DNA of 64,000 nt from a virus. How positions within the stretch are numbered: the stretch's first letter is position 1; each line of letters opens with the position of its first letter. A program made the position numbers and the translations under genes. The notes under the pieces are model-generated. The model did not search any database. It was not told where the DNA came from and saw only the letters and a program-made list of their open reading frames with translations. This document shows, in pieces, positions 17,722-54,172 of the stretch. The stretch covers positions 113,891-177,890 of IMG/VR virus record IMGVR_UViG_3300042731_011014. One strand, given 5' to 3'.

Positions 17722-18252
17722 TTATATCTCTTCATCATTGTTACTAGTCCAATCAATTTCACCTTTGAAATATGAACTATGTTTATCCTCTTCAACTTCT
17801 TCATCTAAGTCCAATTCGTTTATTGTGCTCTCTTCTTTAATGGGTTCGCTTTTTTCTACATTATCCATTTTCTCTTCAATAATCTCTTGCTCATCTACTA
17901 AATCTTTTGTTTGCGTTTCTTTTTGTTTTTCTTCCTCTAGTTGATCGTCTTTGACTGTGATTTCCTCGACATTTTCATTAGTCTCGGGATCACTAACTTC
18001 CCTTATATTATTAACCGGCTGAATGTTTTGTTCAACCTCTTTTTTCTTTTTATTTTCTATACTTACTTCTATCTGCTCTTCTAAATAGATTTCTTTTATC
18101 CATTTACTTCTAAGATACCTGCTAATATCAGGAGAATTAACATTAATACCCTCAACCATAAAAGTAGAAAATCTCGGTACTAATATTGAAGGACCCTCAA
18201 TAAGATTAATCGGTAATGGCCCACTGAAAATGTTTCTGTATGCTTTTTTCAT
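17722..18252 (-). CDS. hypothetical structural protein with acidic disordered tail
   Basis: 176 residues. The first 60 look folded (YRNIFSGPLPINLIEGPSIL, VPRFSTFMVEG, ISRYLRSKWIKEIYL); the remainder is Glu/Lys/Asp-rich and probably disordered. It lies between the sheath gene and the IscB remnant. The gene order suggests a tail or neck protein, but I do not recognise the family. Confidence 0.65.
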   Translation of the reverse strand: MKKAYRNIFSGPLPINLIEGPSILVPRFSTFMVEGINVNSPDISRYLRSKWIKEIYLEEQIEVSIENKKKKEVEQNIQPVNNIREVSDPETNENVEEITVKDDQLEEEKQKETQTKDLVDEQEIIEEKMDNVEKSEPIKEESTINELDLDEEVEEDKHSSYFKGEIDWTSNNDEEI

Positions 18253-18350
18253 AAAAAAACCCCTTTACTTTGTCCACGCGGCGGAAACCCCTGATTTCAA
18301 TCAGGAGAGGAGCCACCTAACGATTGAACACTATGCATACGAATAACCGT

Positions 18351-18464
18351 CTATCCGTTGCAATATTTAAAAGCGATACCTTTCTTTAGCAATTCCCTTA
18401 CACGTGCCGGATGGCAGGGCATTAACGGCATTTTGTTTTTGTCTAAAACAAGAGCTTTTAACAT
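18351..18464 (-). pseudogene. IscB N-terminal fragment (PLMP domain only)
   Basis: 37 codons: MLKALVLDKNKMPLMPCHPA then RVRELLKKGIAFK, followed by four unrelated residues and a stop. 'VLDKN..PLMP..PARAR.LLK.G.A' is the diagnostic start of IscB and related RuvC/HNH nucleases. No RuvC, bridge helix or HNH part follows; within 50 nt the sequence reaches the right-end hairpin. This is an internal deletion rather than a point mutation. Confidence 0.75.
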
Positions 18465-18702
18465 TGGGAGTTACCTCCCAATTCTCTGCTTTCGCAGGTA
18501 AAGGTCACCTCGGCAAAGTTAATGCACGGTTTTATATGCAAACAGCACTGGCTTAACCCCTTAGACCTGGTGAAGCATTCCAAAGTGCCTATATATTTGC
18601 GCTTAACGTAGCTCAAGAAGTATTGCTCCTTTGCTTAGCCTGGTCAACATAAGGCCTGTTATTTTTCACAAACCTCCGACTTAAAGTCGAGGGCAGTTGA
18701 CA
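18465..18702 (-). ncRNA. IscB omega RNA (HEARO-type)
   Basis: About 238 nt ending at the iscB-type ATG. Visible elements: a hairpin at 18673-18693 with the GACTT/AAGTC stem; AAGGGGTTAAGCCAGTG; GCCGAGGTGACCTTTACC; a CTGC-GAAA-GCAG hairpin with a GNRA tetraloop (18486-18497); and GGGAG-GTAA-CTCCC, another GNRA tetraloop (18466-18479), abutting the start codon. IscB guide RNAs lie directly 5' of iscB with the guide at their 5' end. Here the guide would come from the last codons of the gene at 18704. The RNA looks whole although the protein is not. Confidence 0.7.
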
Positions 18703-18703
18703 T

Positions 18704-19441
18704 CTATTCCTTTTGGTGCATATTGTGTTTACCTTCTTTAACTGCCTTATAGACAACCGGATCATTCAAATCTATTTGCCCCTCAACTCTAATAGTTACC
18801 GACCATACAGCTAATCGATTACCTATTTCAGCAAATTCGCTAATATCTGAAAATCCTTCAAGATAAACATCGTATGTTCTGTCCTCATCAAGGCTATCTT
18901 TCACGTTAACCAACGAATATGGCTGATAAGTTCTTAGGACCTTCTTTAAAATAGCCTGCGTAACTCTCCTGTATTTGGATCGAATAATTATGGTGTAGTT
19001 AATATCATAGGGCCATGCCATAACTTTAGTTTCGTAAGAATCATATCCATTAAGGGTTGTCCCGTCAGGCTTTGTAATCACAACCGGATTTGCACCATCA
19101 GCAGGTCTTTTATACTGCAAACCAAGGGAAGGCCATCTTCCAAGTGCCAAAACCGGCTCACCATTTCTTTGGACCTCAATTGAAGGTAAAACGTGATTTT
19201 CAACTGTCGCCTTCGGATTGGTAAAAGTTATCGGGATACCTGGAGCAGTAGTGCCTGTACTATCAACAGGTAAATCTGATGAACCTAGCCCGGCTATATC
19301 GCCTAATGGAATTATGTAATTTTGCTGATTATTACCGTCCTGGGACCATCCAAGCAACTGTCCTCCCATAGTAGTAATTACACCCGTATCAAAATCCCTA
19401 ACCCAAACATCACCAGTTTTTTGATCACCAACTAATGGCAT
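18704..19441 (-). CDS. putative tail completion/terminator protein
   Basis: 245 residues with a beta-rich, low-complexity N-terminus (Gly/Asp/Thr) and a folded C-terminal half: MAWPYDINYTIIIRSKYRRV, LKKVLRTYQPYSLVNVKDSL, RTYDVYLEGFSDISEF, RLAVWSVTIRVEGQIDL. The predicted alpha/beta order fits neck or tail-terminator proteins encoded just before the sheath, but this rests on position and fold impression. Its last codons supply the putative guide of the adjacent omega RNA. Confidence 0.55.
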   Translation of the reverse strand: MPLVGDQKTGDVWVRDFDTGVITTMGGQLLGWSQDGNNQQNYIIPLGDIAGLGSSDLPVDSTGTTAPGIPITFTNPKATVENHVLPSIEVQRNGEPVLALGRWPSLGLQYKRPADGANPVVITKPDGTTLNGYDSYETKVMAWPYDINYTIIIRSKYRRVTQAILKKVLRTYQPYSLVNVKDSLDEDRTYDVYLEGFSDISEFAEIGNRLAVWSVTIRVEGQIDLNDPVVYKAVKEGKHNMHQKE

Positions 19442-34364: not shown

Positions 34365-37300
34365 TTATGCTACTTTTTTGTAGCTGATAGCTTCCTTAAT
34401 CTCGCGCATGAGGATCCTTAGTTCTCTAACACCTTTATTGAGTTCTTTGTTTGAATTAATAATATTTAAAACCTGGTCTTTTGACACATTCTTATCTCTG
34501 CCTGAAGTAAGTCTTCTTTCAAATCTGCGTCTTAATTGCTTTTTAACAACTTGAAGGTCCTCTTGAGGAACGTTTTCTGCTGGCTTTTCGGCCGGCAATT
34601 GTCCACTCATTGATATTTTAGATCTGATTTTATCTTGCCTACCTTCAATTGATGCCATTCTTATAGCATCCTCAACACGATGATCTAAGATATCCTCAAT
34701 TTCTGAGTTAGTCATGCCGAAAATGTTTTCCATAATCCATCGTTGTGATACCCATTGTTGCATAGAATCGGCTAACTGTGCTCTTTGATTTCTCACTTCC
34801 ATTTGGGCCATTTCAAAAACAGCGCTCGGGACTGTCATCATGACATTAAAATTAACAGATGATGGGTCAAGGCCTTTAGCCGCAAGATGGACACGTCCAA
34901 TTTGATGGAATCCAGTTTTAAGGACCCTTTGGACCCTCAGTATTGTACGCGCAAATCTAACATCTTCCTGGGAATTATGAACAAAAACTCCGCATTCCGT
35001 AGCAAAATTATGATAACCATCAACAGTCATATCATAAGTATCAATAACAGGGCCTTCTCTAACTTCAACAACCTTATGATTTCTCCCCTTTTTTATCGCG
35101 GTAGCAGTAGACCTACTCATGTACTTCAGCATGTACTCATGTGCAAAATCTGCGTACTTGATGCCATTTTCTGAAAAAATCCTATTAAGTAAACACTCAC
35201 TATATCCGGACCACTTAATAAGCTCTTTTTTACTTTTACATCTATAACTTTTTGCAACTTCTATTAGATGTTCAATATTTGCATCAGCACCTGGACTATA
35301 AACCTGCTCGTAATCTTTTAACTTTTGTGCCCTACCAATACCAGAAGCATTTCTCCTATATAGAGGCATTAGTGAATCCTCAGGTTTTAAATCTATTGCT
35401 TCTCTATAAGATCCGTCTCTCATCATAATAGGATGATCTGGCGTACAAGTTAAAATCTCCCCGTTATCAAGAACAACTTCCACTGTTCTGGTTTTTTTCT
35501 TAGTTAAACGAGCATTTTTTGCTAGACCAGGTACAATATGACCATCATCATTACAAGAGTAAACCCAAAATGGCTTGCTTCTTTTTGAAAGATTCTCAAT
35601 TGTTTCAGATGTTCCATCCAATAAAGGAATCATTGTATTGCCAGCTAAACACAAGGTGGCTCGTGATATTGTTTCCTCATACCCAAGGTAAGCCCTAGGA
35701 ACTTTTATTGCTGCATACAATTTCATTCTAAAATAATCAACGTCATCAATTCCCTGGTACATACTACCCTGAAGCATGTCAATCCGCGTACTATCTTTTC
35801 CACTACGTGTTGGAATCCAGAAATCCTCATCTTGAGAATTCTTTATGAAAATACCAGCCGTTAACGCAAAATTATGATATTTTTCAACAGTTAAAGTATA
35901 AGTATCTTCACACTGTTCAATGTATTTAACTGAAACGACTTTATGATTATTCGATGATGCCCATTTTTTAAAAGATTTGAAATTGTCAAAACCTTTTTCC
36001 CTATACATTTTTAACATTAAATGTCTATGAACTTTCTTTGACAAATTTTCCTGTTTAAATAAATCAATCAATCTGGAATTATTGACATAATTTACAACAT
36101 CTTCTGCGCTAACATTTAAATTGTTGGCCACATATGATTGAACGCCAACGAAAAAATCATCAGAAAACTTAATTTTTCTTTTTTCAGAAAAAGCTACTCT
36201 GTTTTCCTCGTTTTCCCAAAATTTCTTTTTATTTTCTGACCGCTTAACATTGTCTTGCTCATGTTTACATGAATTATTATAAGCTATTATGTACTTTTCT
36301 ATCTTATTCCAAGCTGAAATATTTGCAGATGACACCTTTTTTAGTTTTTTATCCAAAACAGGATCGGATAACCTTATCTGAGACATAATATGACCAATAT
36401 TATGACCATTATCACGATGTATTATACTATGTTCGCTTTTTTTCATAAAAGACAAATTATCGGGAGAATTATCAGTTTTTATAAAATTTTCATGATGAGT
36501 TACACCATTTTGCTTCAATTCATCTCTAACCATACGATGGGTGTAAATATATTTTTTTGTTTTTGGATCATAAACCATCTCGTACCCATCTATTGAATAA
36601 CCCTTATCCTTTGACGAAATAAGAGTTTTGTATGGCATAAGAGAATCACCAGATTTTAAATATCTTGCTTCACAATATTTCCCATCTCTTTTTATAAATT
36701 TATGATCTGGGGTAGTCCTAATTGTTTCACCATTATCAAGAGTTACCTCAACAAGTTGTGCCATTTTTCGGGTTTTTCCTGCCCAAACTATTTTTCCTGG
36801 AACAATTTTCCCACTATCAGATCTATCAACAGAATATACCCAGTTCTCTTTTCCTCTGTTGAATTCGCCAACAAGGTTAACTATTGGGATATCTCTGCCA
36901 TCAAGTAACGCTATTTTTGTATCACCGGTCAAACAAAGAGGATTGTACTTCATATTCAAAGTACCATCTGAGTTGACAAACTTGCGTTTTTTAAACTCAT
37001 TTCGCATTTGTCTGACATGAGCGGTCGCCTCATCGGCATCCATGTCACCCGTATCAACGTAGAAAGCAAACCTTGTAGGAGCCCTGGTAAGTCGGTAAAC
37101 AAGCATCGCATCCTCAAGGAGAACTAATCGTTTCCAGATCCATCTTGCGGGCTCGAGCACGCTATTGTGAACAACAATACCATCTGAAACAAAGCAATGT
37201 CCGTCATCAGCAACTTCTATGTCATAAACCTTTTCAATAATACTTGGTTCTTTAGAAACTATTTTTTCTGAAAAAAAATCATTATCAGAAATATTTTCTC

Positions 37301-40085
37301 TAAAGAATGACAACAAATAACTGTCTCCACTATTTATTTCTTTACCATTTATTATAGATTTTTTATCTCTCGGCTTACGCGGTCTAATGTTCCCAGATAT
37401 CCATCCTAATCCATCTATAACTGTTTTAATATCAGCTAAAAGATTTTTATTGCAAAGCTCAGTGTGATTATATTCTCCTTTTTTGGTTATCCACCCGTCG
37501 GCCTCCATAAATCCATCTATCATCGCTGTTCTGATACTTTTTGGAGCATTATAAACCCAATATGGCACTCTTTTGTTTCTTGCCCTATTAATCCACCCTA
37601 TTTTAATCATTAGATCAGATAATCTTTTTGAACTGACATTAATCGTCCTGCTTATTCCATCATCTCCTCTGCTGACTTCTCTGACATTTAAACCAATACT
37701 TCTTAAGTAATTTTCATAAAATATATTTCTTTCTTCATATACTCCAAGGTGTATAATTATACACCCGTTTTCAATTGCACCATTACCAAGCATATACCCC
37801 CAAAACTTGGCAAATCTATGATCTATAAAATCTGGCAAAATCAATGAATCATATTTTTTCTGCTCAATAGAGTCATAAGTAAATGGTACTCTAATGGAAC
37901 TAAACAATTTTTTTGCACTATCAAATGACAAAGAACTTTTACCATCTAATAATTCATCAAGCTTTCCTTTAGTTATCCCAATATCTTCGGCAAATCTTTT
38001 CAATCCATCAAATTTACTGGAATATTTACTTATTTTTGCACAAGTTTTAAGCGAGTTAATTCCACGTTTACTTAAAACAAATTCAGATTTAGAATTAAAC
38101 TCATCTAATAAAAGGCCAAGTGGAATATTATTCTTTGTTTCTGGGCAATTACTAACGCACATTATTTTATCATTAGGAGACAAATCTTTAACCTGAACCC
38201 ACGTATTTCTCCCTGGCTTTTTATCAACTAAAACAGGATGTTCGCCAGTTAATATTATTTCTCTATGTGCTGTTTTTAACTTAAAGGTTTGCTTTTCCCC
38301 ACTACAAACATGATTCAGTACTTTAGTTTGTCTAAGTAACCCTGCGTGTCTAGTAAAAACACTATCGCCTGGTTTAATATCCTTAATGAACTTCACACCA
38401 TCTGGGGTCCAAACCCTTGATTCACCTGATAAACAATACCCGTACTTACTCTTTCTCATTTTTGATCTAAGACGGAAATGAGCAATCTTCCATGGCTCAT
38501 ATAAAATGGTATTACCATCCTGGGATGCCATTGCACCGTTTGGCATTTCAATGCCAAAAACAGATTTATCAATTTTAAAGTCACCTGAATAAGATTGTGC
38601 AAACCCCAATATTGCACCGGTCCCAGTTTCAAACCTCCTAATCGTAGCTGATGGAAGGAAATTTAATCCCTGAACACCATCATCGTTAACCAGTATCTCT
38701 TCATAATCACTGCCATATTTGCAAACTGTTCTAGATATCTCCCAAATATTGTCTTCAGCTCTTATTTTGTTGTCATACATATCGGTAAGATCTGTTTGAA
38801 CATTATCATCCTCGCATTCAACCCACATAGATCGGTTTTTTTCACCATCAGTTTGTGTTGAATCGTCTGCATATATATCGAGAGCCGAATTGTGAACAAC
38901 TACTCCATTGCAAACAAAATTATGATATTTTGGGACTTCAATATCATACACATCGTAAGATTCGCTAATTCTTATAACATTAACCACTCGATGATTTCCA
39001 ACATCAGAGATGAGATCGAATTCTTCTAGCCTGCGTTTCAGTACGCCAAAAGATACGCCTAGCTTTTTTGCTGCCTCAGTTATACTACTTGATGACATAT
39101 AAGCAGCTTCAACCTCTTCCCTGCTAAGCTTTATTTTATGCCCTTCAGCTATCTTGCGCTTGTGCTCTTCTGATAGTTTTTTGTCTGTTAACGGCACTCT
39201 CTGCTTTTTATCTGTTTTCCTTTGATTTGGATGTTTTGTTCCAAGCATTTTTCTAGAGCGCTCTTTGCGCAATTCATCTGTCCATTCTGGAAAATACTTA
39301 GTTGTATCGTGACTTTCGAAATTATGCTTTCTGGCATGAGAATTATGGGTTTCTAGACTAAGGTTGTCCAAACTATTATTTAAAGGGTTGTTGTCTTTGT
39401 GGTGGACAACCTCCCCTTTTTTTCTTTCCAAAAGCTCATTAGCGACCAATTTATGAATCCAAGTCCACCTTTTCCCGTCACTTTCTCTTATTGATTCTGG
39501 TGATGGTTGGTGGACTTGCCAATATTCGTTTTTACTCTTAGGAGTTAATTTTCTAGTTCTAAGTGCCCCTGGCATTAATCGTGTACCAGGTTTTAGTTCG
39601 CCAGCTTTTTTCCAAACATTAATTTTGGTTAAAAACAAATGATCATCAGTACATGTAATGCTTTCGCCATTATCAAATAAAACTTTGACCATTTGTTTTG
39701 GATGACCTGCCTTGCCTGTTATACGTGCATTTTTTGCTTTTGCAGGTAATAGAGATCTTCTTAACCTGTTATAAGAAAGAACATGAAACTCTCCTCCTCT
39801 CTCTGCAAGTTTTTTAACTTCAATCCAACCATCTTCTATTGTAAAAATCTTACAACATCCCGTAATACAAGAAAGATCTGGGTAGTCATCCATATTTTCA
39901 TAATCGACATAGCGACTCATAAGATCATGATCTAATTGCAAATAATCGGCTACTGAGTCAAATCCGAACTGCATAAACAGGTTGAAATCTTTTTCGCCAG
40001 CCTGAGGAAGATCGGACCGAGAAACCTCATTTTCTCTTTTGAAAATATTTCTTACATATCCAGCAATTTTATCACTTATTGACAT
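34365..40085 (-). CDS. portal protein (gp20-like) carrying four inteins
   Basis: 1906 residues in one frame. Removing four inteins (73-399, 551-974, 1051-1416, 1479-1704) leaves a 563-residue portal, close to T4 gp20 (524). Extein landmarks: FNLFMQFGFDSVADYLQLDH, MWVECEDDNVQTDLTDMYDN, ARWIWKRLVLLEDAMLVYRL, APTRFAFYVDTGDMDADEAT, KVPRAYLGYEETISRATL and a helical C-terminus with QLRRRFERRL. Every intein starts with Cys, ends in Asn and is followed by Ser. The dodecameric portal is the DNA channel and packaging-motor dock; it must splice four times before assembly. It follows the large terminase by 3 nt. Confidence 0.93.
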   Translation of the reverse strand: MSISDKIAGYVRNIFKRENEVSRSDLPQAGEKDFNLFMQFGFDSVADYLQLDHDLMSRYVDYENMDDYPDLSCITGCCKIFTIEDGWIEVKKLAERGGEFHVLSYNRLRRSLLPAKAKNARITGKAGHPKQMVKVLFDNGESITCTDDHLFLTKINVWKKAGELKPGTRLMPGALRTRKLTPKSKNEYWQVHQPSPESIRESDGKRWTWIHKLVANELLERKKGEVVHHKDNNPLNNSLDNLSLETHNSHARKHNFESHDTTKYFPEWTDELRKERSRKMLGTKHPNQRKTDKKQRVPLTDKKLSEEHKRKIAEGHKIKLSREEVEAAYMSSSSITEAAKKLGVSFGVLKRRLEEFDLISDVGNHRVVNVIRISESYDVYDIEVPKYHNFVCNGVVVHNSALDIYADDSTQTDGEKNRSMWVECEDDNVQTDLTDMYDNKIRAEDNIWEISRTVCKYGSDYEEILVNDDGVQGLNFLPSATIRRFETGTGAILGFAQSYSGDFKIDKSVFGIEMPNGAMASQDGNTILYEPWKIAHFRLRSKMRKSKYGYCLSGESRVWTPDGVKFIKDIKPGDSVFTRHAGLLRQTKVLNHVCSGEKQTFKLKTAHREIILTGEHPVLVDKKPGRNTWVQVKDLSPNDKIMCVSNCPETKNNIPLGLLLDEFNSKSEFVLSKRGINSLKTCAKISKYSSKFDGLKRFAEDIGITKGKLDELLDGKSSLSFDSAKKLFSSIRVPFTYDSIEQKKYDSLILPDFIDHRFAKFWGYMLGNGAIENGCIIIHLGVYEERNIFYENYLRSIGLNVREVSRGDDGISRTINVSSKRLSDLMIKIGWINRARNKRVPYWVYNAPKSIRTAMIDGFMEADGWITKKGEYNHTELCNKNLLADIKTVIDGLGWISGNIRPRKPRDKKSIINGKEINSGDSYLLSFFRENISDNDFFSEKIVSKEPSIIEKVYDIEVADDGHCFVSDGIVVHNSVLEPARWIWKRLVLLEDAMLVYRLTRAPTRFAFYVDTGDMDADEATAHVRQMRNEFKKRKFVNSDGTLNMKYNPLCLTGDTKIALLDGRDIPIVNLVGEFNRGKENWVYSVDRSDSGKIVPGKIVWAGKTRKMAQLVEVTLDNGETIRTTPDHKFIKRDGKYCEARYLKSGDSLMPYKTLISSKDKGYSIDGYEMVYDPKTKKYIYTHRMVRDELKQNGVTHHENFIKTDNSPDNLSFMKKSEHSIIHRDNGHNIGHIMSQIRLSDPVLDKKLKKVSSANISAWNKIEKYIIAYNNSCKHEQDNVKRSENKKKFWENEENRVAFSEKRKIKFSDDFFVGVQSYVANNLNVSAEDVVNYVNNSRLIDLFKQENLSKKVHRHLMLKMYREKGFDNFKSFKKWASSNNHKVVSVKYIEQCEDTYTLTVEKYHNFALTAGIFIKNSQDEDFWIPTRSGKDSTRIDMLQGSMYQGIDDVDYFRMKLYAAIKVPRAYLGYEETISRATLCLAGNTMIPLLDGTSETIENLSKRSKPFWVYSCNDDGHIVPGLAKNARLTKKKTRTVEVVLDNGEILTCTPDHPIMMRDGSYREAIDLKPEDSLMPLYRRNASGIGRAQKLKDYEQVYSPGADANIEHLIEVAKSYRCKSKKELIKWSGYSECLLNRIFSENGIKYADFAHEYMLKYMSRSTATAIKKGRNHKVVEVREGPVIDTYDMTVDGYHNFATECGVFVHNSQEDVRFARTILRVQRVLKTGFHQIGRVHLAAKGLDPSSVNFNVMMTVPSAVFEMAQMEVRNQRAQLADSMQQWVSQRWIMENIFGMTNSEIEDILDHRVEDAIRMASIEGRQDKIRSKISMSGQLPAEKPAENVPQEDLQVVKKQLRRRFERRLTSGRDKNVSKDQVLNIINSNKELNKGVRELRILMREIKEAISYKKVA
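34974..35651 (-). other. intein 4 of the portal, endonuclease-less (226 aa)
   Basis: Portal residues 1479-1704. Starts CLAGNTMIPLLDGTSE, block B EILTCTPDHPIMM, ends VIDTYDMTVDGYHNF and GVFVHN before Ser. Only about 90 residues separate the splicing halves (LIEVAKSYRCKSKKELIKWS is part of them). I see no HNH or LAGLIDADG motif, so it is close to a mini-intein. Confidence 0.88.
35838..36935 (-). other. intein 3 of the portal, HNH-like, KN terminus (366 aa)
   Basis: Portal residues 1051-1416. Starts CLTGDTKIALLDGRDIP, block B ETIRTTPDHKF, ends CEDTYTLTVEKYHNF and AGIFIKN before Ser. The penultimate His is replaced by Lys. The insert holds THRMVRDELKQNGVTHHENF and TDNSPDNLSF, an HNH-like set. 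Confidence 0.88.
37164..38435 (-). other. intein 2 of the portal, LAGLIDADG type (424 aa)
   Basis: Portal residues 551-974. Starts CLSGESRVWTPDGVKF, block B EIILTGEHPVLV, ends KVYDIEVADDGHCF and SDGIVVHN before Ser. Two degenerate LAGLIDADG helices, WGYMLGNGAIENG and IDGFMEADGW, are about 95 residues apart, as in monomeric DOD endonucleases. Confidence 0.92.
38889..39869 (-). other. intein 1 of the portal, HNH type (327 aa)
   Basis: Portal residues 73-399. Starts CITGCCKIFTIEDGW (block A), block B ESITCTDDHLF, ends with block F/G YDVYDIEVPKYHNF then CNGVVVHN, followed by Ser. The insert has HHKDNNPLNNSLDNL (HNH), SEEHKRKIAEGHK (NUMOD3-like) and AAKKLGVSFGVLKRRL (helix-turn-helix), so a complete homing endonuclease. 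Confidence 0.92.
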
Positions 40086-45518: not shown

Positions 45519-46514
45519 TTACTTTACATCGACTCCAATAAGTTCCTTGAGGAAAGTGATCCCAGACTTGTCCATTCTTCGCCTAGTCTCTCTTAAAATA
45601 TTCCCCGGCCAACTGGGACCACTAGTAACAAAACCGGTCAATGCCTGTACGGCTGATGCTCCGTTTCTTATGTACTTGAGAAAATTACCCGCGGTGCGGA
45701 CACCTCCAACACCAATAATAGGCATTCTACCTTCAGTTATTCTGTAAATATCTTTTACCATGGCTACGCCGTGATCATAAATAGGCCTTCCACTCATTTC
45801 GCAATCATAATCACCGCCTATTTTCTCACTTAACCTAGTGCTGATCGTATTAATTACAACAAATCCAGTAAATCCGGCGTTAATAGCCCAGTCAACTTTT
45901 TTACCTAAATCGCCAGCTCGATCATGGTAACCAAGCTTAACAAAAACAGGGTAATTTATTTCAGTAAAATTCCTAATTGCTACCCTAATCCTTTCATCCT
46001 GAATATTAGAATCAAACCGCTCTCCATCAACGATCGGACATGACATGTTAATGGTCACATAATCAAATCCTAGCTTGCCAATTAAATGATCAGCAATATC
46101 TATAATATGAGGATCATGTCCCCATATATTAACTCCAATAATACAGTTACCTGTCCTCATATTTAGTCTTGGCGCTACCCTTAAAATACCATCGCTAGGC
46201 AATTCGACCCGATTAAAAAGGATATCATTTTTCATGATTATCCTTGGTCTTGGGGCGCCGTCTCTCTGTCTGTAAGTAATAGTACCAACTTCAACACATC
46301 CAAACCCAATAGAGCTTAGTCCATCAATCATGGTCCCATTTTTATCAAATCCGGCCGCAATACAAAGAGGATTAGAGAACATCATATCAGATATTATAAT
46401 ATTTAACCGCGGATCATAGACAATATCTCTATTTCTTTTTCGAGCCCATGATTTAAACAAACTGTTTCTAAGAACCATACCAGCCACATTGTGGAGTGTT
46501 TCTCTATCAAACAT
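45519..46514 (-). CDS. pyrD: dihydroorotate dehydrogenase (class 2-like)
   Basis: 331 residues with the usual order of FMN TIM-barrel motifs: NPLCIAAGFDKNGTMIDGLS, GFGCVEVGTITYRQRDGAPR, INMSCPIVDGERF (the Ser is the likely catalytic base), VFVKLGYHDRAG, GFVVINTISTRLSEKIGG, MSGRPIYDHG, PIIGVGGVRTAGNFLKYIRN, ALTGFVTSGPSWPG. Oxidises dihydroorotate to orotate in pyrimidine synthesis. Departures: NRVELPSDGI where NR.GF.N.G is usual, and CPIVDG for SPNTPG. Start ATG behind AAGGTGTTAA. A phage copy is unusual; together with thymidylate kinase it would raise pyrimidine supply. Confidence 0.88.
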   Translation of the reverse strand: MFDRETLHNVAGMVLRNSLFKSWARKRNRDIVYDPRLNIIISDMMFSNPLCIAAGFDKNGTMIDGLSSIGFGCVEVGTITYRQRDGAPRPRIIMKNDILFNRVELPSDGILRVAPRLNMRTGNCIIGVNIWGHDPHIIDIADHLIGKLGFDYVTINMSCPIVDGERFDSNIQDERIRVAIRNFTEINYPVFVKLGYHDRAGDLGKKVDWAINAGFTGFVVINTISTRLSEKIGGDYDCEMSGRPIYDHGVAMVKDIYRITEGRMPIIGVGGVRTAGNFLKYIRNGASAVQALTGFVTSGPSWPGNILRETRRRMDKSGITFLKELIGVDVK

Positions 46515-46772
46515 TTAACACCTTTTGCCTTTCTCAATTTTTTTCTTCTTTTTCTTTTCATCTGTTTAAGCCAATCCCATCGCTTCTGGCAGATATCAAG
46601 GGAACATGGCCTAAACTCGCGTTTTCTCAGTTTAAATATTAAGACTGATTGTTCTTTAAAGATGACTTGGCTTGCACCAAGTGGAAGGTATCATGAGCCT
46701 TCCCTAAATTCACACTCCTCATCCTCTCTCTCTTTAAAATCTTCATAGTACCAAATTTTAATTTCATGCATT
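46515..46772 (-). pseudogene. degenerate small gene between sigma factor and pyrD
   Basis: ATG 46771 opens MHEIKIWYYEDFKEREDEEC and runs 26 codons to a TGA at 46691. The same frame then stays open (YLPLGASQVIFKEQSVLIFK, KREFRPCSLDICQKRWDWLK) up to the basic KRKRRKK tract near pyrD. Both parts look coding, so this is probably one gene of about 80 residues broken by TGA, perhaps with an indel in the A-rich end. No family recognised. Confidence 0.35.
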
Positions 46773-47603
46773 TCAGACGTTGTTGTGATGGTCCCCGTTT
46801 CGCAATCTATACTGATCACTCGAACTCCTCAAAAATACTTTTCTTTTCCTCTCAAGCTTACTCATAGCTTTTTTTAATATTTGCTCCGCCCGCTGCTTTG
46901 AAAACCCAAATTTCTGACCTATTTGGACAAAGCTCCATTCATCCCTAACTTTTAAAATTAAAACCTCCCTCTCCTTATCCGTCAAGCATGATAACAGTTT
47001 ATTCGCGATATCTAAATCATATCTAACTCTATAATTATCCTCCTGATTGCACTCATCAAAGGCAAGGTTTTTAACAAAAAATGTACCATCACCAATCCTT
47101 AAAGGTTTCTCAATATTTACTGTATTACTAAGTGCCGTGCCCGATATTATGACAGCAACGGCTATTTTAAGATATCTGCCGTTTGGTGTCCCCTCGTCAA
47201 TTCTATCTAAAATATCGTTAACATTGTCGCCGTTGCTACTTGCTATCAATTTTCTTGCATCGTTTAATCTCCATGCAACCTGTTCAGGTATTCGAACACC
47301 GCTTAATTTACTTGATATAAACCTACAGATTTCATTACTTATACACCGCCTTGCATAGGTGGATACTCTATAACCCTTTTGTATTTTAAAATAGTCCACA
47401 GCCCTCATAAGACCTATTGTGCCCTCCTGGATTAAGTCATCAAGAATCTGTGGCATATTTAACAATCTCGCATATCTACTAGCTATCGCAATAACAAAAG
47501 GCAAATGAGATACTACTAACATCTCTTTATCACCTGATAAAGCTGCCTCTTTCTCTTCTTCTTTTGTTAAAATTCTAATATTCTTATAGATACTGTTTTC
47601 CAT
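46773..47603 (-). CDS. RNA polymerase sigma factor, sigma-70 family
   Basis: 276 residues. Region 2: ILDDLIQEGTIGLMRAVDYF then KGYRVSTYARRCISNEICRF. Region 3: VRIPEQVAWRLNDARKLI. Region 4: LTDKEREVLILKVRDEWSFV, QIGQKFGFSKQRAEQILKKA. Compact and without region 1.1, like alternative sigmas and unlike T4 gp55 in having a clear region 4. It should redirect host RNA polymerase to phage promoters, probably late ones. Its promoter motif is not evident from the window. Confidence 0.92.
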   Translation of the reverse strand: MENSIYKNIRILTKEEEKEAALSGDKEMLVVSHLPFVIAIASRYARLLNMPQILDDLIQEGTIGLMRAVDYFKIQKGYRVSTYARRCISNEICRFISSKLSGVRIPEQVAWRLNDARKLIASSNGDNVNDILDRIDEGTPNGRYLKIAVAVIISGTALSNTVNIEKPLRIGDGTFFVKNLAFDECNQEDNYRVRYDLDIANKLLSCLTDKEREVLILKVRDEWSFVQIGQKFGFSKQRAEQILKKAMSKLERKRKVFLRSSSDQYRLRNGDHHNNV

Positions 47604-47640
47604 GTAAAATAATCACATTCCTTAATGTTAGTATATAATA

Positions 47641-47970
47641 CTAAACTGATATTTTAAGGTGTTCAATTATTTGACATGGTCTATCGATTTGAGACGTATT
47701 TTGTAGCACAATACCAATTTTATTTTTAAATAAAACTAGGTCTACCTCTTTTATCTCAAAAATCATCCCCTTATAAGTAACATAGTCTCCAGGTTGAACA
47801 GTCTTCCTTGCCTCAACTATAATGGTAACCCCTTTGCCTGGGACATTGTAATCCTCATAACCGCCAAAAATATGGATCCTTTTCCATTCCCTGGTTAGAT
47901 CTGATCCGCAATGCACGCAGTACTTCCACCCTACCTGGACTTCTTTAGAACAAAACTTACATGACTCCAT
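47641..47970 (-). CDS. zinc-ribbon protein (109 aa)
   Basis: 109 residues. The N-terminal MESCKFCSKEVQVGWKYCVH with CGSD gives a CxxC-(14)-CxxC zinc ribbon. The rest is a beta-rich domain (GKGVTIIVEARKTVQPGDYV, MIFEIKEVDLVLFKNKIGIV), SH3-like by pattern. Overlaps the previous gene by 1 nt. Function unknown. Confidence 0.65.
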   Translation of the reverse strand: MESCKFCSKEVQVGWKYCVHCGSDLTREWKRIHIFGGYEDYNVPGKGVTIIVEARKTVQPGDYVTYKGMIFEIKEVDLVLFKNKIGIVLQNTSQIDRPCQIIEHLKISV

Positions 47971-48164
47971 TATTTTTCCTTGTCCTCCGGATACTCTATA
48001 ACCTCAAAAACATCATATTTTTCCCCAAGTAATGAACTCCCAATTGAAGCTCCCTTAATCCACTCCAGTGCTTCCTCGCGAGTTTTAAAGTAAAAACTAA
48101 CAGGCTGAGTAACCCTTTCCCCGTACGCCTCCAATGTTTCTATTATAATATAGATCTTTTTCAT
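47970..48164 (-). CDS. hypothetical protein (64 aa)
   Basis: The ATG at 48164 follows AAGGAAGTGAA; the longer frame lacks a site. 64 residues: KKIYIIIETLEAYGERVTQP, VSFYFKTREEALEWIKGA, a small beta-alpha fold with a YDVFEVIEYPED end. Not recognised. Confidence 0.6.
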   Translation of the reverse strand: MKKIYIIIETLEAYGERVTQPVSFYFKTREEALEWIKGASIGSSLLGEKYDVFEVIEYPEDKEK

Positions 48165-48379
48165 TTCACTTCCTTGTAATAGTGGAGAAAACACTCATCA
48201 TGACAAACTTCAAAGCATGTCTTTTTTATCATTTTAATAGCCAGGGATTTATCTTGATTATAATCAATTGCTTCACATGTCCCATCTCCCGTCCCTGCAC
48301 GACACACCCGGTCACTATAAGATGGTATTTGACAATTACAGCCAATAATCATAAGAAGAAGGTACCTTAGGATTTTCAT
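48161..48379 (-). CDS. small putative lipoprotein, Cys-rich (72 aa)
   Basis: MKILRYLLLMIIGCNCQIPS: a short basic start, hydrophobic run and IIGC lipobox, predicting lipid attachment at Cys14. The mature part has six further cysteines (e.g. CRAGTGDGTCEAID, CFEVCHDECF). Phage lipoproteins act in lysis (o-spanins) or superinfection exclusion; which one is open. Confidence 0.55.
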   Translation of the reverse strand: MKILRYLLLMIIGCNCQIPSYSDRVCRAGTGDGTCEAIDYNQDKSLAIKMIKKTCFEVCHDECFLHYYKEVK

Positions 48380-48470
48380 TTTTTGCCTCTACATTAATAT
48401 AAATTGCTGAATTGTTGGTAAACTCAAAATGAGCAAAGTCCGATTTTCCTCTACTATATCGACTTTACCA

Positions 48471-49073
48471 TTAATACCTTCGTAAAGTTTTGTCCCTACG
48501 TTTTTTACAAGTATACTTATCTGCTACAAGGTTGACAGTATTAACTATCATTTCTTTCATTTCTTCACTTGATTGACCGAGATCAATAAACCTAAATAAT
48601 GCATCAACAATCTTACCGAGTACAAATGCCTTCTTGCATTCCTCATGAAAACATTCGTCCTCAAGCTTATCTAACGCGATATGTGCCGATGAAAGAATTT
48701 CCATCTGCATTATACTGACAATGTGATCGTTATCTAGAAATCCATAACATGGACTAACTAACATATCATGGACTTTTTCCATTGCACTGCTTAAGTTGTC
48801 AAAGGTGTCGGTAGCTACGTAACCATTGCCTCTCACTGTGAATTGGTTTTTCTCTATAATGCAATCTATAAACCTATGCTCTCCTTTAAATTCAAACATA
48901 GGATAAAAAGCATCTTCGCCGTCAGGCAGTATCTCAATATTGGTAAGCGATTCGGCTAATAGCTGGTTAACGGTGACAGCCTTAGCCATTTTTTCAACTA
49001 AATCCTTTTGGTCGCCGCTTAACCGATTATATCCTATTACTAACTCAATGTTCTCATATATTTTGTATCTCAC
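48471..49073 (-). CDS. hypothetical protein (200 aa), possible frameshifted end
   Basis: 200 residues. Helical C-terminal half (MEILSSAHIALDKLEDECFH, EMKEMIVNTVNLVADKYTC). Near the end an A6 run (48501-48506) separates this frame from another that continues GTKLYEGINGKVDIVEENRT and LLILSLPTIQQFILM to 48389. Removing one A would join them, giving about 35 more residues. Not recognised. Confidence 0.55.
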   Translation of the reverse strand: MRYKIYENIELVIGYNRLSGDQKDLVEKMAKAVTVNQLLAESLTNIEILPDGEDAFYPMFEFKGEHRFIDCIIEKNQFTVRGNGYVATDTFDNLSSAMEKVHDMLVSPCYGFLDNDHIVSIMQMEILSSAHIALDKLEDECFHEECKKAFVLGKIVDALFRFIDLGQSSEEMKEMIVNTVNLVADKYTCKKRRDKTLRRY

Positions 49074-49398
49074 TACTGACTCCTATTGAGCGTATAATGT
49101 CATCATGTCTCTGTTTTACAACTGCATCAATTTTTTCCACAATCATAGAATACAATAAAGGCTCTCGACTTTTTTTAATATAGAAAATAAAGACCCATCC
49201 ACCTTTATTGTAGTAAAAATAAAAACTTCCAGTGGTTGAGCAACGTCTTATCAGGTATTTTTTATTAACAATAAACTCATTGCATACTAACATAGTGGAT
49301 GAAAATTTCCAGTAACCATAGGCGTTAGAAGTGTCAAGAATCTCGCCAATAACTTTATTTTTAATCCCATTGAGTAATTTCTCTTTTTCGTCAGTCAT
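49054..49398 (-). CDS. hypothetical protein (114 aa)
   Basis: The ATG at 49398 follows GGGAGGGCACC. A beta-rich centre with many aromatics (RCSTTGSFYFYYNKGGWVFI, FYIKKSREPLLYSMIVEKID). Its end overlaps the next gene by 20 nt. No family recognised. Confidence 0.55.
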   Translation of the reverse strand: MTDEKEKLLNGIKNKVIGEILDTSNAYGYWKFSSTMLVCNEFIVNKKYLIRRCSTTGSFYFYYNKGGWVFIFYIKKSREPLLYSMIVEKIDAVVKQRHDDIIRSIGVSSEIQNI

Positions 49399-49673
49399 GG
49401 TGCCCTCCCCGGGTCCCATTCAGAACTGCATATTTCGCCGTCATCCTTATATTCCCTTTCATAGTCTTTGACAAATTTATCGTAATCAGGTCCGCTTAGG
49501 GCACGGACCATCTGATCGATAACCCACATTTTATGATGATCTCCATCGTACCAGGAATCACTCCATGCTATGTCTAGTGCCTTATTTATTCGGTCAACTG
49601 CTTCCTTTTGATCGATTGCTTTCACTAAAAACTTCATACTTGGACAGCTCAATTTATCTCTCCTTTTATCCAT
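49395..49673 (-). CDS. hypothetical protein (92 aa)
   Basis: 92 residues; an internal ATG at 49637 (MKFLVKAIDQKEAVDRINKA) is an alternative start. WSDSWYDGDHHKMWVIDQMV and DYDKFVKDYEREYKDDGEIC follow. Coupled by a 4-nt overlap to the next gene. Unknown. Confidence 0.5.
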   Translation of the reverse strand: MDKRRDKLSCPSMKFLVKAIDQKEAVDRINKALDIAWSDSWYDGDHHKMWVIDQMVRALSGPDYDKFVKDYEREYKDDGEICSSEWDPGRAP

Positions 49674-49909
49674 TTAACATAAAGGTTATCAAGTTCAATC
49701 TCCATTCTCATTATTTGACTACGGCATGAATCACTAGACGCACCGAGACGTATCTTATAATAAGCTAGTCGTTTTATAAGATTTATTGATTCACGAAGTT
49801 GTTTGATTTGCTGAAGTCTGTAAAAGCTGCTTCCAAGCTCATATATTCCATCAATCTCTTTTTCAGTAAATATACCGCTCAAATACCTCTTAACACTATC
49901 CTTATCCAT
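49649..49909 (-). CDS. hypothetical protein (86 aa)
   Basis: 86 residues, all-helical by composition: YRLQQIKQLRESINLIKRLA and SCRSQIMRMEIELDNLYVKW. Overlaps the metalloprotease gene by 8 nt and the next gene by 25 nt. Unknown. Confidence 0.5.
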   Translation of the reverse strand: MDKDSVKRYLSGIFTEKEIDGIYELGSSFYRLQQIKQLRESINLIKRLAYYKIRLGASSDSCRSQIMRMEIELDNLYVKWIKGEIN

Positions 49910-50486
49910 ACGCCTTCTTAAGTCTGTTCTTGTCGCGATTAGTAAACGTAAGAGGTTTGGTATTTTTACCGATAGTTGGCCTCATTATTGAGTTACCAAT
50001 ATTATCGTGGTCTAGCCCAAGTCCATGTCCGATCTCATGTCTCATTACCGCATCCAATAAATCACCTTCTAACCCATAATCGATTGTTATTAGGCATACA
50101 ATTAGTCGCCCACTTTTTTCATAGCGATACTGGTTTAGACCCTTGTTCCTACCTCTTAAATCGTCTTTGCGTAGATAAATATGACCACGTGGTACCTTCT
50201 CAATCTCATTAATTCTTGGAAAATACCACGTAGTTATCCCAGCAAAAACCTCTTTGCCAACAATTTTATTGACTTCTTTAATTATGGCAGAACATGATTT
50301 TTTGTAAATAGGATCCAAATTGTCATTGTGTAAAATAAAAATCGGCAGGTCATCCTTTGACCATCTGATTTCACGGCCGCTCTTGGTCTTTATGAAACCA
50401 ATATCCTTATCCCTGAAGTAATCAGCTAACAGAAAAACAATGATAATTGCAATAATTGCGGCTGGAAAGCAAAGTATCCACATCAC
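49902..50486 (-). CDS. membrane-anchored matrixin-type zinc metalloprotease
   Basis: 194 residues. An N-terminal membrane helix (WILCFPAAIIAIIIVFLLAD, 3-22) is followed by a catalytic domain with HEIGHGLGLDHD (zinc ligands HExxHxxGxxH, about 151-161) and the Met-turn GNSIMRP. This is the metzincin/matrixin arrangement. It would face the periplasm or act on envelope proteins. The gene next door is a one-helix membrane protein, so an envelope or lysis function is possible but unproved. Confidence 0.82.
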   Translation of the reverse strand: MMWILCFPAAIIAIIIVFLLADYFRDKDIGFIKTKSGREIRWSKDDLPIFILHNDNLDPIYKKSCSAIIKEVNKIVGKEVFAGITTWYFPRINEIEKVPRGHIYLRKDDLRGRNKGLNQYRYEKSGRLIVCLITIDYGLEGDLLDAVMRHEIGHGLGLDHDNIGNSIMRPTIGKNTKPLTFTNRDKNRLKKAYG

Positions 50487-50504
50487 TCAATCAACCTCCA
50501 GATG

Positions 50505-50702
50505 TTAAAAAGGATTATTTAAGGCGTCTTTTACTGCATCCTTCACCAAATCGCTACTGTTATCGATGGATTTACCACATTCTAGCCACCCTATTGCATA
50601 AATAAGCATTGCAATAATTGTAATCATCAGTAATGCAGAAAAAATCAGTTGGACCTTATTTTTCCAACTTGCATGCCATATATCAATAAACCACTGAATC
50701 AT
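50505..50702 (-). CDS. small membrane protein (65 aa), holin/spanin-like size
   Basis: 65 residues with one long hydrophobic helix (VQLIFSALLMITIIAMLIYA, 18-37) flanked by WHASWKNK and an acidic C-terminus. Between a metalloprotease and an OmpA-like remnant. One-helix holin or inner-membrane spanin are possibilities; no lysis gene is certain nearby. Confidence 0.5.
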   Translation of the reverse strand: MIQWFIDIWHASWKNKVQLIFSALLMITIIAMLIYAIGWLECGKSIDNSSDLVKDAVKDALNNPF

Positions 50703-50712
50703 TTTTTTCCTC

Positions 50713-51052
50713 TCACTTTCTAAGGGATACTTCCCCTAAAATAACAAAAAAATCAACTCTTCTATTGAGTTGCATCCCGGCATTTGTGCCCGTTTCATCA
50801 AGCCTGTACATCTCGCCAAGCGGTTTAATCTTTACTCAATCTACTCTTACCCCCTTTAGAGACAAAATATTCTACAGCAGCCATAGCACGTTTCTTAGAG
50901 AGCTTCATATTATACTCATGACTTGCCCTGTGGTCAGTATTACTCTCAACAATTAACAACCTTATATCAGACCTCGTTTTTAATAACTTAACCACATCAT
51001 CTAAAATTATAATCGATTCAAGCCGAAGTGTCGATTTTTTGCTTGAGCCACT
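50713..51052 (-). pseudogene. OmpA-like peptidoglycan-binding domain remnant
   Basis: Reads in frame straight after the lysyl-tRNA synthetase stop: STLRLESIIILDDVVKLLKT, RSDIRLLIVESNTDHRASHE, YNMKLSKKRAMAAVEYFVSK, then after a one-base shift KIKPLGEMYRLDETGTNAGM and QLNRRVDFFVI. This follows the OmpA C-terminal pattern (F....L..ES..ILD, GHTD..G, N..LS..RA, NRRV.F). There is no start codon or N-terminal part. A single extra A in a short A run (about 50847) also breaks the frame. A phage or host envelope gene truncated by the synthetase. Confidence 0.7.
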
Positions 51053-52675
51053 CTACCGCCCTTCTGGCCGCATATGTGGAAAAAGGACTACATCTCGAAT
51101 GCTTGGCTGATCACAAAGGAGCATCACCAAACGATCAATTCCTATGCCCTCACCTGCTGTTGGAGGCATGCCGTATTCCAAAGCCCGACAATAATCCTCA
51201 TCATACTCCATTGCCTCCTCATCACCGCGCTCCCTTTCTTTGAGTTGGTGAACAAATCGGTCCCGTTGATCTGCTGGATCATTCAACTCCGAAAACGCGT
51301 TTACTATCTCACGCCCGGCAATAAATAGCTCAAATCGGTCAACTAACTCTGGACAGTTATCTTTGCGTCGAGAAAGAGGGGATGTAGCCGCTGGATAATC
51401 AATAACAAAAGTGGGCCTGTCTGCGGGTAAATGAGACTCACCTAGCTCCTCAAACAAAATCCCCAAACGCTTGCCATGGCTTTCTGCAAAACGAAGCCAT
51501 TGACCAAGTTGGTCATCACGGGCTAAAAGCCCTGCTTCCTTACACCACTTCTCAGTTGCACCAGCGTCGTCAAGGGTTTTAAGGGTCACTTCTGGTGAAA
51601 AACCTTCCTTTTTGCAGGCCTGAACAATACATTCTTTTACGGTAAGTCGGGGCCAGCGAGGCGATAAATCAATGTCTTGCCCTTGATACTGTATTTGGGT
51701 GCTATTACAAATTTGCTTGGTTAGCTGCATAAAGAGATCCTCTGTGAGATCCATAAGGTCTTGATATGTGGCATATGCCTGATAGAACTCGAGCATAGTG
51801 AATTCGGGGTTATGTTGGCGAGATAATCCTTCATTGCGAAAATTTCTGCCGATCTCATAGACCCGCTCAAATCCGCCGACCACCAATCGCTTTAAAAACA
51901 ACTCTGGGGCAATACGCAAATAAAGTGGCATATTTAATGCGTTATGGTGAGTACAAAAGGGTTTAGCAGCAGCGCCACCTAGTATGCTATGAAGAAGAGG
52001 GGTTTCAACCTCAATAAAATCAATGTCATCAAAATATTTGCGCAGAAATTTGATAATTTCGCTTCGTTTACGAAAAACTTCGGCGACCTCTGGATTGGCG
52101 ATCAGGTCCACATATCGCTGACGATAACGGGTTTCCTTATCTTTTAGGCCTTTCCACTTTTCAGGTGGAGGACGGACCGCTTTGGTAAGCAAAACAACTT
52201 CCTCAGCCATAAGCGTTAGCTCGCCAGTTTTTGTAAGAAATGGTTTTCCACTTACTCCTAAAAAATCATAGGCCTCTGCCTTTTTAAAGATGGCATAAGC
52301 CTCTTGTCCAACCATATCTTTTCGTATGTAAACCTGCAATCGGTCGGTTCTATCGGCTAATTTAACAAAAGCAACCTTGCCAAAGATCCTATGCTCAACA
52401 ATACGGCCAGCTATGGAAAACAGCTCATTCAATATTGGCTCCCCATTAGGGCTTCCACCATCTGGAAGCTCTACCTTGGCAAGCTTCTTTTTAATCTGAT
52501 AGGTTGTGTGGGTGGGCTTAAAATCATTCCTATATGGATTATGACCATCTTTTTGTAGCTGCCGAGCCTTTGCTTGCCGCTTTAGGATGAGCCGATTCAC
52601 TTCTTCGATTGTTTGCTGCTTTTCTATTGTGTCTGCTGAAGGACCCCGGGGGGCACTTACCTTCTGTTGCTCCAC
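51053..52675 (-). CDS. lysS: lysyl-tRNA synthetase, class II
   Basis: About 540 residues from the GTG at 52675, which has AAAAGGAG 5 nt before it; an in-frame TTG at 52693 lacks a site. N-terminal OB-fold anticodon domain (about 65-175), then class II motif 2 (GRNFRNEGLSRQHNPEFTML) and motif 3 (GEGIGIDRLVMLL) with the family end LFPHMRPEGR. It charges tRNA-Lys. Visibly more GC-rich than its neighbours and with a different codon style, so recently acquired, probably from a bacterium. Its stop abuts the OmpA-like remnant in the same frame. Confidence 0.93.
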   Translation of the reverse strand: MEQQKVSAPRGPSADTIEKQQTIEEVNRLILKRQAKARQLQKDGHNPYRNDFKPTHTTYQIKKKLAKVELPDGGSPNGEPILNELFSIAGRIVEHRIFGKVAFVKLADRTDRLQVYIRKDMVGQEAYAIFKKAEAYDFLGVSGKPFLTKTGELTLMAEEVVLLTKAVRPPPEKWKGLKDKETRYRQRYVDLIANPEVAEVFRKRSEIIKFLRKYFDDIDFIEVETPLLHSILGGAAAKPFCTHHNALNMPLYLRIAPELFLKRLVVGGFERVYEIGRNFRNEGLSRQHNPEFTMLEFYQAYATYQDLMDLTEDLFMQLTKQICNSTQIQYQGQDIDLSPRWPRLTVKECIVQACKKEGFSPEVTLKTLDDAGATEKWCKEAGLLARDDQLGQWLRFAESHGKRLGILFEELGESHLPADRPTFVIDYPAATSPLSRRKDNCPELVDRFELFIAGREIVNAFSELNDPADQRDRFVHQLKERERGDEEAMEYDEDYCRALEYGMPPTAGEGIGIDRLVMLLCDQPSIRDVVLFPHMRPEGR

Positions 52676-52745
52676 AACTACTCCTTTTGCCAACTCTTTA
52701 TCTTAAACAAATTCAAATTCTTAATTGGACTCGCCACTGCCTTAT

Positions 52746-53057
52746 TCAAATTTTTAAACGTCTCCTGTGCTGAAGTTCGGCTATCTGTGATTCTAGACTA
52801 ACCAATTCATCTTCAATCAATTCACTTTTTTTTCTATTTTTAGAAATAAAATCCTCTAAATTATCTTTGAGGATACCTTTTTTATTTTTAAGATTTTCTA
52901 TTCTACTTTTCATATCAACAATCGAACTTGTGTACTCAAAATCATCATCTGTAATTTCACCAAATAGCTCAAAATAAACATTAAGAGTATTTTTTAGTCC
53001 ACGTATTTCTATATCTTTTCTATCGCAGTATGGACAATCTTTATGCAAAATGGTCAT
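52746..53057 (-). CDS. coiled-coil protein with CPYC start (103 aa)
   Basis: 103 residues. MTILHKDCPYCDRKDIEIRG gives one CxxC; the rest is a heptad-like coil (MKSRIENLKNKKGILKDNLE, LIEDELVSLESQIAELQHRR). The single CxxC could pair with a second subunit to bind zinc. Unknown role. Confidence 0.6.
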   Translation of the reverse strand: MTILHKDCPYCDRKDIEIRGLKNTLNVYFELFGEITDDDFEYTSSIVDMKSRIENLKNKKGILKDNLEDFISKNRKKSELIEDELVSLESQIAELQHRRRLKI

Positions 53058-53125
53058 ATTGCCTCAATCCCTTCTGAGTTACCCTCAATATCTATATCAT
53101 GTATGGCTTTTAAATCATCGGCAGC
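53058..53125 (-). pseudogene. fragment of the major capsid gene
   Basis: 26 nt (53100-53125) are identical to capsid gene positions 29648-29673. Similarity continues in frame: AADDLKAIHDIDIEGNSEGI against AADDLKAIHGMDAEGELVGG. It overlaps the 3' end of the next gene and has no start codon. Confidence 0.65.
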
Positions 53126-53558
53126 CATTACCGAGATAATATCCTTCTAGGAACTTATTCTTTAAATCAGGTCTTAAAGAAAAGATACTATCGGCCACGC
53201 TTAAAACTTTCATCCTTGATTCGTTACTTTTTAGCACATCATCATAGTAATTGGTAGTTCCCTTTATTAACTTGCGGTCAGTACGGTGAATATTCTGCTC
53301 AACTTCAAGAGAATCTTTTTTTCTTAGATTGATGTTTTCTTTAGCAAACACCATACCACCTGAAAAGCAACTGTCATCGCAATTATCCTTAGCAAGATAG
53401 TCCTCATCAATCCACTCTGGGTTGTAATTCTTGAATTTTACAAGGTACTCATTATTTTCTTTGCAAACCCGATGTTCAGCAATTTTTCCCTGATTACCGT
53501 TAAAAATAAATTTAACACACTCACCTATTTTAAACTTTGGACTGCTTGTTTTTGACAT
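53115..53558 (-). CDS. SH3/KOW-like protein with terminase-like C-terminal helix
   Basis: 147 residues. N-terminal KFKIGECVKFIFNGNQGKIA then YLVKFKNYNPEWIDEDYL looks like a small beta-barrel (KOW/SH3 type). The C-terminal ESRMKVLSVADSIFSLRPDL resembles ESRKKVLEIANNIASLRPDL of the putative small terminase. The reading frame ends by running into the capsid-gene fragment, so the last residues (NGCR) derive from it. A patchwork gene. Confidence 0.55.
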   Translation of the reverse strand: MSKTSSPKFKIGECVKFIFNGNQGKIAEHRVCKENNEYLVKFKNYNPEWIDEDYLAKDNCDDSCFSGGMVFAKENINLRKKDSLEVEQNIHRTDRKLIKGTTNYYDDVLKSNESRMKVLSVADSIFSLRPDLKNKFLEGYYLGNGCR

Positions 53559-54091
53559 TGTATCTCCTGAACTATTTTGTTCATTTTTTCTTTTACTTGT
53601 TCATAGCTTACAGGATAAAATCCCCATGCATCAACCCCCACATCAAATGATAAACCATACGGGGGTAAGTCACCGTGTGAATGACCATATAGGTGCCAAC
53701 TGCCGTAATGCGATAGAGGCCAGACTCTCATAGCATAATGGCATAAAACTATTATCCTTTTTCCGCCCGGTACATCCCTATCTGGAACTTTCAATTTGTA
53801 GATATCTTTTACCCACGAAAATAAGCCTTTTTCTCTGGAAATCTTCTTATCATGATTCCCTCTAATAAGAAACTTGTTTCCATTTAAAGACTTTATAAAT
53901 GCGCGACTTCGTTCAACATTGCTATCCAATGAAATATCACCCAGGATATAAACGCTATCGCCTCGTTTAACAACAGAATTCCAGTTGCATGCAATGTTGG
54001 TGTACATGGAATCTGCATTATCAAACGGTCTATTACAGTGTCTGATAATGTTGTCATGGCATAAATGCAGATCTGCGGTGAAAAATATCAT
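53525..54091 (-). CDS. calcineurin-like metallophosphoesterase
   Basis: 188 residues with all core motifs: FTADLHLCHDN (DxH), VYILGDISL (GD), LIRGNHDKK (GNHD), VLCHYAMRVW and WHLYGHSHGDLPP (GHxH). Two-metal phosphodiesterase fold, compact YfcE-like size. Substrate unknown; phage members act on nucleotides or nucleic acid ends. It overlaps the next gene by 34 nt. Confidence 0.9.
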   Translation of the reverse strand: MIFFTADLHLCHDNIIRHCNRPFDNADSMYTNIACNWNSVVKRGDSVYILGDISLDSNVERSRAFIKSLNGNKFLIRGNHDKKISREKGLFSWVKDIYKLKVPDRDVPGGKRIIVLCHYAMRVWPLSHYGSWHLYGHSHGDLPPYGLSFDVGVDAWGFYPVSYEQVKEKMNKIVQEIQCQKQAVQSLK

Positions 54092-54172
54092 TCAACACTC
54101 TTTATTAAACATGTTAAAGCATTAAGTAAATGATGACTAAATTAGCAGTTTTGTCAATGTATTATTGAATAT

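Follow-up and report, generated by a model that had tools for sequence, protein, structure and literature searches.

Two copies, hereafter A and B, of an IscB (HEARO) element with common ends, different flanks and no surviving protein genes are present in the phage genome record analysed here, and we consider it quite likely that they are non-autonomous derivatives of IscB elements that were moved, and perhaps also guided, in trans. The guide RNA of IscB, from which Cas9 descends, has as a rule been studied together with the adjacent nuclease. Copy A lies in the window, i.e. the whole 64,000-nt stretch of DNA that was analysed, which constitutes bases 113891-177890 of a 177,890-bp virus record. 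The source phage is a myovirus with genes for a tail sheath and a tail sheath stabiliser, and the large genes around element A are all on the minus strand. Elsewhere in the window, inspection by eye points to a portal protein interrupted by several inteins (a 1906-aa frame at 34365-40085) and to dihydroorotate dehydrogenase, sigma factor, lysyl-tRNA synthetase, thymidylate kinase and RecA-like genes (45519-57125). A pentapeptide-like repeat protein with near-identical LKGANLKWSN units occupies 62504-63211. A 17-nt stretch at L074:2416-2432 (minus strand) matches the tmRNA 3' end (17 bits, below the cut-off) without a complete tmRNA being present, and is perhaps an attachment site.

A degenerate IscB element in the tail operon

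Element A spans 449 nt of the minus strand (18253-18701), from GTCAAC to the base before an ATGA, its ends having been set by comparison with copy B, two near-identical copies from Geoalkalibacter and IscB elements of other phages. The upstream gene (18704-19441, minus strand) encodes a homolog of the tail sheath stabiliser (PF16724, 6e-4; phrog_227, 6e-4), and its TAG stop is 2 nt before the element. The downstream gene (17722-18252, minus strand; 176 aa), taken from the list of open reading frames and from synteny in 24 of 25 related phages, has a start codon that abuts the element. The Rfam HEARO model (RF02033) recovered a full-length match (model positions 1-211) on the minus strand at 18701-18498, with 65.7 bits and an E-value of 1.1e-12, placing the omega RNA at the left end of the element.

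Two GNRA-loop hairpins on the minus strand, CTGC-GAAA-GCAG (18486-18497) and ATTGGGAG-GTAA-CTCCCAAT (18463-18482, from sequence and fold), sit between the omega RNA and a 37-codon frame (18351-18464, minus strand), with the second of them extending over the IscB start codon. The frame comprises residues 1-31 of the IscB PLMP domain followed by a C-terminal scrap. Profile searches with it recovered the Pfam RRXRR domain (PF14239) over residues 5-31 with 31.5 bits (cut-off 25; 2e-7), the NCBIfam guided_IscB model (NF040563) at 1.3e-7 and the solved TbaIscB structure (PDB 9k30) at 5e-5. The NF040563 model matches only the PLMP stretch, at 29-31 bits against a cut-off of 175. RuvC, bridge helix and HNH are all missing from this frame, and most of the C-terminal region of IscB is also deleted. 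Immediately after the stop of the frame, GAC GGT TAT TCG TAT GCA TAG encodes DGYSYA-stop (18331-18351, minus strand), off the PLMP frame. IscB relatives in Geoalkalibacter end in ADGYSYA-stop, ADGYAY-stop or ADGYGY, and the scrap thus indicates that the deletion starts near residue 32 and stops a few codons short of the C-terminus. The element then closes with a right-end double hairpin on the minus strand (18280-18317; outer stem GGTGG/CCGCC, inner stem CCTGATT/AATCAGG), which is common to B and to IscB elements, and a tail (18253-18279, minus strand) containing a Shine-Dalgarno-like AAAGGGG 7 nt before the ATG.

These observations largely bear out the first-pass annotation, which had proposed an IscB-derived non-autonomous element within a phage tail operon. 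The two GNRA hairpins before the PLMP frame and the right-end hairpin that it had described are all there on the minus strand; RuvC and HNH, which it had called deleted, are indeed missing, and the PLMP stretch alone matches IscB. The covariance-model search that it had recommended returned the match given above, and with PF14239 also matching, the joint lack of RNA and IscB similarity that it had named as fatal is clearly not what is found. Its limits of 18702-18275 have to be redrawn to 18701-18253, up to the ATGA of the next gene.

A search of the 177.9-kb record with the IscB family recovered only the PLMP scrap and no IscB gene, and a search for the Y1 transposase gave zero matches. Both enzymes are likely absent from the phage itself, a judgement that stops short of proof since the record may be incomplete. 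Any movement of the elements would therefore need enzymes supplied in trans.

Copy B and the broken RNA core of copy A

Searching with element A recovered the second copy, B, on the minus strand at positions 83362-83726 of the same record (L007:1363-1727), having inserted between two small phage genes where the stop of one overlaps the start of the next. The omega RNA of B is complete (RF02033, 140.5 bits), with a minimum-energy fold similar to the HEARO consensus, and its right end is fully paired, the fold beating all 200 shuffles. Copy B lacks the PLMP domain that A retains above the PF14239 cut-off; its start codon and one further codon run directly into the C-terminal scrap, the junction being marked by GTTA. 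A single nuclease deletion common to both copies was considered and rejected, GTTATTCGTATGCATA being the native IscB C-terminus and the breakpoints being different.

The two omega RNAs fall on either side of the RF02033 gathering score of 83, A being below it because of an internal deletion. Relative to B, copy A is without 30 nt (CCCCAGGCTCTACGGCAAGTGGTTAAACAG), and CAG, which occurs at each end of the segment kept in B, marks the junction (18567-18569, minus strand). Two consecutive core helices of A are each left with a single strand by the gap, the first having lost its 3' strand and the second its 5' strand, whereas B has all core helices with one broken pair, in the first helix. Copy A thus probably no longer works, because its RNA core is broken. 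The omega RNA of the window copy, termed intact-looking in the first-pass annotation, is therefore not intact, that of B being the complete one, and the window copy is probably the damaged member of the pair and its sibling the intact one. The differences between the two are strongly skewed: 5' of the gap 17 of 134 positions differ (15 by transitions), while the 108 positions 3' of it are identical (probability of all 17 differences falling on the 5' side, 2.7e-5). Moreover, the 5' strand of A at the gap (CACTTTGGAATGC) is similar to that of Geoalkalibacter copy 192 (CACCTTGGAATGC). These two observations suggest that A is a chimera in which two element variants meet at the CAG.

A shorter stretch at record positions 65942-65991 (minus strand; L075:5920-5990), situated before another gene starting with ATGA, consists of AAGGAGAAAATTATAGGTAACTCCCA joined directly to CGCGTGGACAAAGTAAAGGG; the former resembles the pre-ORF hairpin region of the element at 22 of 27 positions and the latter the right-end tail of A at 20 of 20. 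Judged by this likeness, it is likely the relic of a third insertion that possibly now serves as a ribosome-binding site. A further tail resembling the right end, at record position 37761, forms part of the coding sequence of the gene before it and may be due to chance.

Element ends and the flanking ATGA

Both A and B extend from GTCAA to just before an ATGA that provides the start codon of the next gene (18249-18252, minus strand, in the case of A) and is the presumed TAM. An omega RNA at the left end, a hairpin at the right end and an adjacent ATGA together reproduce the layout of the IscB insertion elements (ISC). The ATGA lies 27 nt past the right-end hairpin in A and 24 nt past it in B; in IscB elements of other phages it is 6-15 nt away in seven of eight loci, with the eighth (L019) being undeterminable, as is a copy from a Butyrivibrio plasmid described below. 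Every other element checked is flanked by ATGA, except for the Geoalkalibacter copy cop130, which has ATGG. ATGA starts are common in the window (28 of 63 long minus-strand frames), and its presence next to A and B would by itself be weak evidence; it is the consistency across genomes that counts.

Joining the flanks across each element restores ordinary gene junctions. For A this yields AAAAGGAATAGAT-ATGA (AAGGA-TAG-AT-ATG), which places the downstream gene at +2 nt from the stop of the tail gene, and for B GTTAAGTC-ATGA (TCATGA, in which the TGA stop overlaps the ATG). Likewise, two further viral elements discussed below give GGAGATAGTTA-ATGA with a TAATG overlap (G288) and GAGGTGTATAG-ATGA with a normal junction (G287). 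Relatives of the phage were gathered via the tail sheath, the tail sheath stabiliser as sole query having recovered zero viral relatives. In 24 of these 25 the distance between the stop of the tail sheath stabiliser gene and the start of the next gene is -4 to +13 nt, and HEARO was found in none of the 25 records. The empty-site comparison suggested in the first-pass annotation hence yielded a tight junction lacking HEARO in 24 of the 25 related phages, though no empty site with identical flanks was found. Taken together, the joined flanks, the junctions in related phages and the cross-genome ATGA fix element A as 18701-18253 and B as record 83726-83362. An alternative right end at CCGCCGC, with a GTGG/ATAA-like TAM, was rejected, as the joined flanks and the related phages fit ATGA better. 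Since insertion takes place directly 5' of ATGA, usually a start codon, the element comes to lie between the Shine-Dalgarno region and the ATG. The proposal that all right ends supply a Shine-Dalgarno site was also discarded; A and the Geoalkalibacter copies have such a motif at the right end, but G287 and G288 have none near the ATG.

IscB-less copies in other phages and plasmids

A DNA pattern picked without regard to IscB recovered three more viral contigs with HEARO (G286, G287 and G288). In G286 the contig stops within the element. Neither G287 (156.6 bits) nor G288 (144.9 bits) contains an IscB at any position or retains a remnant of PLMP; in both, extra small hairpins and a right end are followed by an ATGA that is the start codon of a frame. 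The cultured and complete Parabacteroides phage PF672P2 carries a HEARO (130.4 bits) without IscB, in an element whose end adjoins the ATGA with which a gene for a single-strand DNA-binding protein starts, and the Butyrivibrio plasmid likewise has an IscB-less copy (142.8 bits). These scores fall within the range of IscB-linked HEARO RNAs (83.7-159.6 bits), and so, A excepted, the IscB-less RNAs show no visible decay. In a tree of omega RNAs the IscB-less members are scattered in several places among the IscB-linked ones, and loss of the nuclease has hence occurred several times. Among 59 predicted pairs in the IscB-less set together with A, 29 show a case in which both bases have changed and pairing is kept, although the divergence behind this covariation may in large part predate the nuclease losses. 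Given their recurrence in other phages and plasmids, such nuclease-less guide elements probably depend on a nuclease from something else in the cell.

A further case is plasmid pGSUB1 of Geoalkalibacter subterraneus, which has two IscB-less HEARO copies (109344-109863 and 33775-33253; L093 and L012) that are 97.9% identical over 523 nt in unrelated flanks, alongside two intact IscB copies; the IscB-bearing copies have diverged. The IscB-less pair, which carries no annotation as elements, starts at GTCAGG, and the likeness stops right after a common ATGA that is the annotated start of a gene at both sites. This near-identical pair supports movement of IscB-less copies in trans, as read from sequence comparison. 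The same possibility had been raised in the first-pass annotation, and copy B and the IscB-less copies in other phages add to its support. Like the phage elements, the pGSUB1 pair combines an omega RNA and a right end with a deleted nuclease, an ATGA start codon and presence in two copies; it differs from them in being only about 69% identical, in residing beside two intact IscB copies and in having kept a longer part of the IscB C-terminus. For this phage, no autonomous partner whose ends match was found, the nearest being about 70% identical. Queried with exact omega RNA and right-end pieces, the viral_contigs and genome_contigs collections returned nothing close, a relaxed piece of the element found a single Halanaerobiales assembly at about 70%, and 250 genomes of the phylum of that assembly held no close partner.

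Relationship to known systems

The omega fold, PLMP start, right-end double hairpin, ATGA flank and guide position of the phage copies are those of the IscB/HEARO elements (ISC group, IS200/IS605-like, RF02033). In contrast to these, the phage copies have no RuvC or HNH, B has no nuclease frame at all, and IscB and Y1 transposase are missing from the record. Altae-Tran reportedly described in 2021 standalone omega RNAs of IscB systems that have no adjacent nuclease and are thought to serve in trans; unlike the phage copies, these are said to occur mainly in bacterial chromosomes. A comparable reduction is seen in ORF-less IStrons and MITE-like IS200/IS605 derivatives, which lost their protein genes internally and kept the RNA part (PMC4227781). 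In the IStrons, however, this RNA is a self-splicing group I intron rather than a nuclease guide. In plasmids, TnpB drives the spread of its insertion sequence by cutting element-free molecules (PMC11870625); there TnpB is encoded in cis, whereas the nuclease of the phage elements would have to come in trans.

Functional implications and alternative explanations

On the preferred reading the element inserts directly 5' of ATGA without target duplication, and its movement would need enzymes supplied in trans. Transcription of the operon through B would then produce an omega RNA in which the terminal part of the gene before it serves as 5' guide; by analogy with IscB omega RNAs, the putative 16-nt guide of A would be ACCAAAAGGAATAGAT (18702-18717, minus strand), at the end of the tail gene and outside the element. 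The RNA of B could function as a guide in trans if loaded by an IscB of the host or of another element. The loaded IscB might cut insertion-free phage genomes at the guide sequence plus ATGA, as TnpB does for its insertion sequence in plasmids (PMC11870625), and repair of the cut genome would copy the element in. The guide of A plus ATGA has no other near match in the record (the best elsewhere has three mismatches) and would therefore spare the carrier phage. Over 16% of HEARO-encoding fragments were judged to be viral or prophage (PMC9755519), and so phage and IscB meet often. A bolder generalisation, about which we remain doubtful, is that the IscB-less copies form a recurrent class of RNA-only selfish elements, guide-only homing elements of phages that land at ATGA start codons and, with a nuclease borrowed from a co-resident element or the host, cut the genomes of rival phages without the insertion.

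The main alternative, which we regard as unlikely, is that A and B are dead relics of two ordinary IscB insertions that lost the nuclease after arrival and are decaying without a present role. The 30 nt missing from the omega RNA of A, its frameshifted IscB scrap, the broken pair in the first helix of B and the missing IscB and Y1 transposase genes would all fit this, and the differing nuclease deletions would be compatible with separate IscB insertions each decaying in place. Decay, however, does not sit well with an RNA in B that scores equal to IscB-linked ones and a right end that is still fully paired, or with the recurrence of structurally intact IscB-less copies in unrelated phages, and the Geoalkalibacter pair indicates that such copies do spread. 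Domestication as a leader RNA that would regulate the downstream gene from its 5' untranslated region, via the element's own hairpins and ribosome-binding site, appears highly improbable: all IscB-less copies with a traceable end do adjoin a start codon, and A and the Geoalkalibacter copies bear the Shine-Dalgarno-like motif, but the ATGA TAM accounts for this position, as IscB-carrying copies also lie at ATGA, the downstream genes are unrelated and the RNA is kept in none of the 25 related phages. Weaker still is the idea of a decoy or anti-defence RNA that occupies or misdirects host IscB, for although IscB-less omega RNAs recur in phages, there is no evidence here of IscB defending against phages, and the guide is the end of the flanking gene as in ordinary elements.

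Non-autonomous elements mobilised in trans thus remain our preferred explanation. Their ATGA-adjacent motif steers insertions to translation starts. The repeated occurrence in phages of the guide part of IscB elements without the nuclease, with its fold well kept, suggests a capacity of guide RNAs for selfish spread, which would rely on the nuclease of another element.
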